Positions 53,601 through 56,600 of a DNA stretch of 64,000 nt are shown here, piece by piece. Where the stretch lies: contig NC_083587.1 in the NCBI RefSeq assembly GCF_027579695.1, positions 54,071,521-54,135,520 of the forward strand, read 5' to 3'. The notes under the pieces were generated by a model. It worked only from the letters and a program-made list of their open reading frames with translations, ran no database searches and was not told the DNA's origin. Source of the stretch: Neoarius graeffei (taxonomy: Eukaryota > Chordata > Actinopteri > Siluriformes > Ariidae). Each line of letters starts with the position of its first letter. Positions within the stretch are counted from its first letter, which is position 1. The translations under genes and the position numbers were made by a program.

Positions 53601-56600
53601 GTACGTTAAAGCGAATCATTGGCCGTAAAAGAGAGTTTTTTGGACTCGAGCTGGTCACCTCTGAAAGAAACTCGTGCAAAATGGCGGATTTCTCAGGCAT
53701 GTTTATAACATCCTTTTCTACCTTCATCATTCGCTTAAAGGGCACATCTTGGGTAAATTCAGGAGCAAGATCAATGTAATTCTCCTATTTTATATTAAAC
53801 TTTGGTCAAATATCTGTAACATTTTGTATTTTGTGCAAGTTTTTTACCTTGCGCAATACCAGAAATATTCAGTTGAAATCAAACCATTTGAGGTGAATTG
53901 GTCCGCCTCTGAAAAAAAATTTGGCATTTGAACTTCCCGGCAAACATTGATTTTCGTGACGTTGCGTGTGAGACGCCTCCCTCTGAATCGTACGTCAGCG
54001 CTGGTTTGTTCATGAGAAAACGACCTGGTGGTTTTCTGCAAATTTCTTCAACGTTATCATGTAATTATTAAAATGGTTAACAGATGTATCGTAGATGCAT
54101 CGTAATCTTGACGGGATTAGTACTCATCGTTTTCCAAAAGACTAGACAATGAGAGAGAAATGGGAGCGCTTGGTCTACACAGGCTGTGCACTGAAACTGC
54201 GCAAAGCTCTCGCAGCCTGCTGGCGCTTCCGCAGATGACGTCACGAATCTGGCTCCAGACTCCCTTGGGATTTTTCCAGACACGTTTTGTTATTTATTTT
54301 TTTCTGCTGTAGACAGATGGCCTTGTGCAAAATTACCCTTCTGGATGAGTGTGTAAAGGAACATACTTTCATATATTTAAAAAAAACCCCGAAATTGGTC
54401 CAGGATATGCACTTTAATGTGTGTGAAGATTCTTGAAAATAAGTAAATACAGATATATTTGCAATTCTGCACGCGAATTTCTTTCGGCAGCGACCAACTA
54501 GAGTCCAAAAAACTCTTATGGCCAATGATTCGTTTTAACTTATGACAGAAGTTAAAACCACAATCTTTTTCCAAGTACACACGAAAATTCAGGTCAAAAA
54601 GAGACAGCAGAAAAGGTAAAAACAGCTATTATAGAAATGCACTGCTCTGCATCGCCAGTCAAACTCCTATGGTTGTCAAGGAATGTCAAGTTAGCTTGCC
54701 CACCACGGGCTTGTTGCTATGGGGAAAATTGACATGTGATCAATTCCTGCAAATGGCCTATTACTAGGAGCTTCAATGGTACAAAAAGAATGCAAAGTTA
54801 GAACGGGATTAAAAAAAAAAAAAAATCAATCGGTTATAGAAAAGCAAAAATCCACTGCATACTTCAGGGAAAGAAGTCACCCTCCTGGTGTTTCCTCTCG
54901 GCGATCACAGTAGGTGTGTTAAAGCAGGAAACACTATTTTCAGTGCTGCTTAAAGAAGCAGGAGCAGAAATACTGCTATACAAGACATGTAAAATGACCA
55001 GACACCTACTTTTCCTGTCTCCTTGCGCAAACTGGATCTCAATCTGCCGTCCGCAAACCCATTTCCGATCCAGGTTGTGAAGAGCGTCTTCGGCGTCGCG
55101 GACATCCTCAAACGTGCTAATGCTGTTAAGGCTTTCCGATTTAAAAACACACCGACACACAGGCTAATCACATGGACACACTCAAGATCACCAGACAGGA
55201 TCTCAGAGGACACCACGGTCATTTTAGCAGTAAAACGTAACATCATTCACATAAGAGAGAAAGCAAAATGAGCTCAATATGGAGAAATCATAAAGAACAT
55301 GGGGAGGGGTAATTACTGGATCAAACTGCAGTTTAAATTTTTAAGCGTTCATAAATTCGTCTTCATTGATGAAATTGTTTGGCAAGCAGAATTACGAAAT
55401 TAACATGGATCAACTTTGAAGAACTTATGACACAGGTAAGATTAGAAAAACTGACTTGTGGGGGGGAAAAGGGACAATGCACAGACTGCAGCAAAGGTAG
55501 GATACAAAAGTTAATACTCGTTACCTTTAACATGCTTGACCTTGAGCTTGACCTTTATTCTCTTTAAGCGCTTCTCAGAAGGCCTTGGGAGGTTTCCTGC
55601 TTGACTTTGCCACATTATCTTTTGCTCTTTTCCTCTCTCTGTTCGGAACAGGTGCCCTCTTTTTCTCCTCTTTGAATCTTCGAGCTTTAACTTTTCTCTT
55701 TCTCTCCCCTCTATCGCTTGGGCGCCTGAATCCTTACGGGCTCTTTGGCTTCAATCTACTCTACTTCGGCCTTTACTCTTAAATACTCTTTGGAGGGACG
55801 GTCTCCAGAACTGTATGTCTTTACATTTTCTGAGACAACAGAAGAAATAGCAGTTAGGAGACACAGTGGCCAGAATACAAATTAAATTAGATCTCACAGT
55901 TTTCACTTTTTCAGATTTTCCTTTCGGAAAACCACAACAGGTTTTCTTTTTACCCCTCCAAAAAAAAAAGAAAAAACAAAACACTTGATTGCTTACAAAG
56001 GATATTGAATGTATGCAAATCCTCTTGGCCGACGGGAATAGAAGTCAACGGGAATGTAGACATCTACAATAGGGCCGTAACGACCAAACTCACGACGCAA
56101 ATCCTCTGGCCTAAAGCATCATGAAATCATAGTTCACTCATTTGTCTGAAGGAGAGAGAGCGAGCCCTCTCCCTGTAAGGTTTAGCGTTAAAAAATGAGC
56201 AAAACAAAACAAAAAACCCGTACTGCATATTATACTGTTTTCCCTGCTGGAATACAGCTCATTCAACTATTTAATAGGCTGAGCTGAGTTCACATGGAAG
56301 TGTTAGAACAGGGAAAACCCTACAATGTGCAGGACAGGGGAGGGGGTTCTCCAGGGAACCTGTGGCATAAAGGAACACTCAAACTGTACATCACAAACAA
56401 TATCAAATATTCTGTGTGGTTTATTATTATATTACATTAATGGCATTCAGCAAACGCTCTTATCCAGAGCAATGTACCACATGCCTAGGGAGCAGTTGAG
56501 TGTTAGATGCCTTGCTCAAGGGCACTTCAGCCTGGTCCAGGGAATTGAACCAGCAACCTTTTGATCCCAAAGTGGTTTCTCTAACCATTAGGACATGGCA

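Follow-up and report, generated by a model that had tools for sequence, protein, structure and literature searches.

Mammalian SRSF10 is autoregulated through a minor intron with nested major splice sites (Meinke et al. 2020, PMC7244321). In that module, as described by these authors, the stop lies within an extension of exon 2, <50 nt upstream of the junction, the mouse enhancer corresponds to nt 17–60 of exon 3, and the mouse I3 construct retained 356 nt of exon 3, the rest being swapped for another minor donor. The minor donor of mammalian exon 3 is rarely used and the poly(A) site in exon 3 appears to be dominant, while knockdown of RNPC3 in human cells left the exon 3 (E3) isoform unaffected or slightly raised (PMC7244321). 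A parallel between SRSF10 and the prospero twintron of Drosophila is drawn by PMC8329584 itself. For fish, a list of genes whose splicing differs in largemouth bass upon heat includes srsf10a, in passages that do not name the event (PMC11505094), and a search by titles and abstract openings, with most subscription journals outside its coverage, found no fish study of E3. The term 'autoregul', sought as a sign of SRSF10 self-regulation, has no occurrence in the main text of PMC8989518. Here, we describe a layout of nested splice sites within the U12-type intron of srsf10 in the fish Neoarius graeffei. The layout is real, and we suggest, with a probability of roughly 0.78, that the arrangement around its third exon is the fish counterpart of the autoregulatory module of mammalian SRSF10, conservation being judged by layout.

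The srsf10 gene is located on the minus strand of the window, that is, the whole 64-kb stretch of DNA that was analysed, with its start at 58896. Joined together, exons 1, 2, 4 and 5 encode an intact RRM and, after it, the beginning of an RS domain, and a Pfam search of the translation returned RRM_1 (E 2e-18). An RS-rich open frame at 47723–47418 on the minus strand is probably the last srsf10 exon, and its end, as we take it, resembles SRSF10 rather than SRSF12; no SRSF10 chain for comparison was present among the 60 solved-structure rows listed. The RRM_1 match and the RS-rich frame thereby supply the gene identity, which is itself one feature of the SRSF10 autoregulatory module. Searches that score only the best candidates yielded no second copy: a DNA search of the 2.34-Gb genome (38 contigs) and a pattern search across the end of exon 2 in the same genome each gave a single match, srsf10 itself, and a protein search for a paralogue gave 39 matches, comprising three of the gene's own exons and 36 others that are at most 45% identical. 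The splice sites and reading frames below are read directly from the DNA, in the order of transcription:

58832–58896, minus strand: srsf10 exon 1, coding part from the ATG, placed by translation; its donor CAG/GTAGGT ranks 12th of 7492 GTs
56006–56110, minus strand: srsf10 exon 2 as bounded by the minor donor, giving an intact RRM when joined to exon 4
55114–56005, minus strand: U12-type AT-AC intron, 892 nt, with donor ATATCCTTT, branch CCTTAAC at 55131–55125 and acceptor AC
55991–55996, minus strand: GTAAGC, a candidate U2 donor immediately next to the minor donor; it is weak, agreeing with CAGGTAAGT at 5 of 9 bases
55948–55953, minus strand: rival U2 donor GTAAAA, with a score of 4.37 versus 4.28 for 55996
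55830–55996, minus strand: U2-type intron nested in the minor one, 167 nt long if it starts at 55996; it has a pyrimidine tract, and its branch is TCCTAAC
55525–55829, minus strand: candidate poison exon E3, with a length of 305 nt if measured to its U2 donor or 324 nt if measured to its U12-like donor
55554–55559, minus strand: AATAAA, a possible poly(A) signal, found in 519 of 2000 E3 shuffles
55519–55524, minus strand: U2 donor GTAACG after AAAG, ranking 108th of 7492 and the best-scoring U2 donor inside the U12 intron
55497–55505, minus strand: second U12-like donor GTATCCTAC, a match to RTATCCT with two mismatches to RTATCCTTT at its end
55010–55113, minus strand: srsf10 exon 4, end of the RRM, placed by reading frame
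53068–53239, minus strand: srsf10 exon 5, start of the RS domain, placed by reading frame

The intron that follows exon 2 is of the U12 AT-AC type, as in the mammalian module. Its minor donor at 56005 is a perfect match to the consensus RTATCCTTT, and 12 nt separate the branch A from the last base of the intron. Were the intron retained, the TAA within GTAAGC (55996) would end the protein at residue 60. A genome-wide search for U11 genes (2.34 Gb) gave one match above the cut-off, and a figure of 91% of human minor introns conserved in zebrafish is cited in one survey (PMC10639083); taken together, these lead us to expect both the minor spliceosome and the srsf10 minor intron in fish. Rfam families at gathering scores gave no match across positions 50000–64000. 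Comparison of the U12 intron with two published human guide sequences (PMC7244321) gave no signal, the four comparisons being equalled in 121 to 935 of 1000 shuffles, and exact-pattern scans for cross-species sequence, one each of viral_contigs and genome_contigs, found none.

The initial annotation had placed a U2 donor, GTAAGC, directly after the U12 donor, and this is indeed the arrangement, with the minor donor starting at 56005 and the major one at 55996 (corrected from 55997). U1 bound to the 55996 donor (bases 55999–55991) would also cover the final three bases of the minor donor, and thus, judging from the coordinates, U1 and the minor-donor snRNP could hardly occupy the site together. 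By the approximate donor and acceptor weights used for all chance ranks, which do not come from a fitted model, GTAAGC ranks 671st of the 7492 GTs in the window, and 156 of 1000 shuffles have an equally good donor within their first 30 nt, which is within chance. The rival donor GGGGTAAAA (55953) is situated 52 nt beyond the start of the minor donor, and a third GT (55897) has a score of 4.62, yet the intron starting there would measure just 68 nt. A competing major donor just past the minor donor is therefore present as in the mammalian module, with 55996 and 55953 as alternative candidates, both weak, between which the choice is ambiguous. With 55996 as the donor, both major sites are contained within the minor intron (55996–55830 inside 56005–55114), which is the nesting that characterizes a twintron, as judged from sequence.

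The choice of donor also determines where the reading frame would close. Reading from 55996, a junction codon and 25 whole codons precede an in-frame TGA within E3 at 55753–55751, whereas use of 55953 would place the TAA of GTAAGC, which is in frame, within the exon, 39 nt ahead of the junction. A stop after 26 codons, as originally claimed, consequently holds for the first donor but not for its equal-scoring rival, and represents one of two layouts.

The acceptor that opens E3 at 55829 had been called strong, and the branch point, the tract and the score bear this out. It follows TCCTAAC...TTTCTTCTGTTGTCTCAG with a clean pyrimidine tract, the branch A lies 24 nt upstream of the exon, and its score ranks 61st of 7874 AGs on both strands of the window. 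It is the only minus-strand site in the 64 kb, and one of six on both strands, to pass a filter for a strong branch point, a tract, YAG and no intervening AG, a filter chosen post hoc with the site already seen. E3 thereby presents the major acceptor and premature stop expected of the mammalian module.

The interior of E3 is rich in purines, with a content of 0.682 that is reached in 83 of 61,652 overlapping 305-nt windows, a count that omits E3 itself and the windows of the GA satellite in intron 1, which also tops E3; all 83 start at about 10.25–11 kb. The hexamer AAAGAG, which was picked post hoc after inspection of the site, occurs seven times, at nt 39, 84, 129, 157, 168, 200 and 265 of the exon. 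At least seven copies were reached in 3 of 5000 dinucleotide shuffles of E3, while any hexamer at all occurred at least seven times in 196 of 5000. Windows with at least five AAAGAG all start in the 55500–55999 bin that holds E3, and the plus strand has none. The first three copies (nt 39, 84 and 129; 55791–55696) are exactly 45 nt apart, and no tandem repeat was detected at 55791–55696 at a score of at least 50. GAAGAG, the CLIP motif of SRSF10 in mouse spermatogonia (PMC9648972), does not occur in E3, and the count of GAGAAA is reached in 621 of 5000 shuffles. As to the SRSF10-type motifs previously attributed to the exon, AAAGAG is enriched, while GAAGAG is missing and GAGAAA does not exceed chance. 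A 75-codon open frame in E3 was likewise set aside, being matched in 213 of 2000 shuffles. A search of the 2.34-Gb genome with E3, which skips very common words, returned one match at E up to 10, E3 itself, and hence gives no sign of a repeat insertion.

Repeats are found elsewhere in the window. Intron 1 contains a long GA-rich tandem array at 56830–57930 (CT-rich on the plus strand), with a 253-nt unit present in 2.2 copies, 94% matching, at 57200–57762. In the intron between exons 4 and 5, an inverted repeat at 53381–54763 has 251-nt arms that are 92% complementary and 881 nt apart, as well as inner 43-nt arms that are 84% complementary, and looks like a transposon-type insertion. Further away, the open frames at 13164–14231 (minus strand, 355 codons) and 34358–35296 (plus strand, 312 codons) are presumably Tc1-type transposases by their appearance. 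The closely similar translations of 20003–20371 (minus), 37084–37536 (plus), 59238–59582 (plus) and 63271–63582 (minus) suggest one interspersed repeat family. A 144-codon open frame at 22605–23039 (plus strand) we take to resemble part of the ubiquitin ligase UBR5, and no Pfam family was assigned to it at E up to 0.001.

At its far end, E3 carries two donors of different type. The U12-like donor at 55505, which the initial annotation overlooked, lies 324 nt into E3 and 19 nt from the U2 donor of the exon, and appears to support a module of the mammalian type. RTATCCT occurs ten times in the 128 kb of both strands, and two of these lie inside the srsf10 U12 intron, namely the minor donor and 55505. 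A minor donor in E3 is also part of the mammalian module, and its agreement in kind and approximate place would be the best evidence that the two modules are the same. The AATAAA previously noted in the exon is present at 55559, but its frequency in shuffled E3 places it within chance, base composition being sufficient to account for it. Overall, five of the eight sequence-level features of the mammalian module were found in fish srsf10, and none was contradicted; for the other three, namely the place of the stop, the GA-rich enhancer and the poly(A) site, the sequence does not speak clearly either way.

We suggest that the minor spliceosome would join ATATCCTTT (56005) to the AC acceptor (55114) to yield the full-length srsf10 mRNA, while the major spliceosome would pair the 55829 acceptor with a donor at 55996 or 55953 and thereby include E3. 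Inclusion of E3 is predicted to cut the protein short within the RRM, at residue 85 or residue 60, and binding of SRSF10 to the purine-rich AAAGAG sequence of E3 may promote the major choice and so limit the level of SRSF10. The use of these sites, the binding of SRSF10, the feedback and what becomes of the short mRNA are proposed here by analogy with mammals.

In a variant of the same switch, which we hold to be a tentative though tangible possibility, E3 would be a cassette exon and its mRNA would be lost by nonsense-mediated decay, with E3 joined either from 55505 to E4 by the minor spliceosome or from 55524 directly to E5, skipping E4, by the major one. The presence at the end of E3 of both the best U2 donor of the intron and a U12-like donor would suit such an exon, as would an AATAAA that does not exceed chance. 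The stop read from the 55996 donor ends 245 nt upstream of the E3/E4 junction, and nonsense-mediated decay usually acts on stops located more than 50–55 nt before a junction. Splicing of a cassette to E4 would, however, pair a GT donor with an AC acceptor, an unusual pair, and an AG 3 nt upstream of the AC acceptor (TTAG/CAC) is a candidate alternative. Moreover, the poly(A) site of mammalian exon 3 appears dominant over its rarely used minor donor (PMC7244321). For the end of E3, cleavage is favoured by the mammalian work; the two donors and the ordinary AATAAA of the fish sequence point neither way.

Alternatively, U11 might bind the minor donor at the end of E3 and, acting across the exon in the manner of a USSE, turn on the major acceptor upstream, such that E3 inclusion would itself depend on the minor spliceosome. 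A U2 acceptor and a U12-like donor do flank a single exon here, and exon definition by U11 in such a setting has been described (PMC8329584), but the tandem donor repeat that is required is replaced by a single copy, and the indifference or slight rise of the human E3 isoform upon RNPC3 knockdown (PMC7244321) also makes this improbable. At both exons the donors come in pairs, but in opposite order: at exon 2 the minor one is followed 9 nt further on by the major one, and at E3 the major one precedes the minor one by 19 nt. As a speculation to which we give low odds, the minor spliceosome may read the switch twice, competing at exon 2 and helping to define E3, in which case inclusion would peak at intermediate minor-spliceosome activity instead of falling steadily with it. 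It is very unlikely that the sites are chance cryptic ones in an 892-nt intron and that E3 is never used: an acceptor equal in score alone arises in 340 of 1000 shuffled introns, which is not beyond chance, and all 1000 contain a donor matching GTAAGC in score, but here a second U12-like donor comes together with the branch point, tract, purines and AAAGAG cluster, all in the order described for mammals. If the proposed autoregulatory exon is used in fish, the link between minor-spliceosome activity and SR-protein levels that is reported in mammals would go back to the last ancestor shared by this fish and mammals, or further.

Among known systems, the USSE of SNRNP48 and RNPC3 resembles srsf10 in that a U2 acceptor is followed by a U12 donor sequence within a gene that limits itself (PMC8329584), but a USSE is a tandem U12 donor repeat, whereas a single copy of RTATCCT is found near E3 of srsf10. 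In the vertebrate twintrons of Janice et al. 2013 (PMC3564746), minor and major introns compete at one position, as would be the case in srsf10, although SRSF10 is absent from the 18 human genes in Table 1 of that study. The Drosophila prospero twintron likewise has a U2 intron nested in an AT-AC U12 intron together with a purine-rich element; both of its products are protein-coding, however, and its element binds Hrp36/Hrp38, whereas the major product of fish srsf10 would be truncated (PMC8329584, PMC8199999). With mammalian SRSF10 (PMC7244321), fish srsf10 shares the AT-AC minor intron after exon 2, the nested major donor and acceptor, the purine-rich exon 3, the predicted loss of the full-length protein and a minor donor towards the end of exon 3. 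The stop in the mammalian exon 2 extension would have a fish equivalent with the 55953 donor (39 nt), while with 55996 the stop falls in E3. Within the interval of the mouse enhancer, nt 17–60, fish E3 has one AAAGAG (nt 39), the other six being at nt 84–265. The minor/major design of mammalian Srsf10 that had been proposed for this fish gene accordingly fits in its layout, but with an ambiguous donor and an AATAAA at chance level, and the counterparts of the mammalian elements stand in the same order in fish srsf10.
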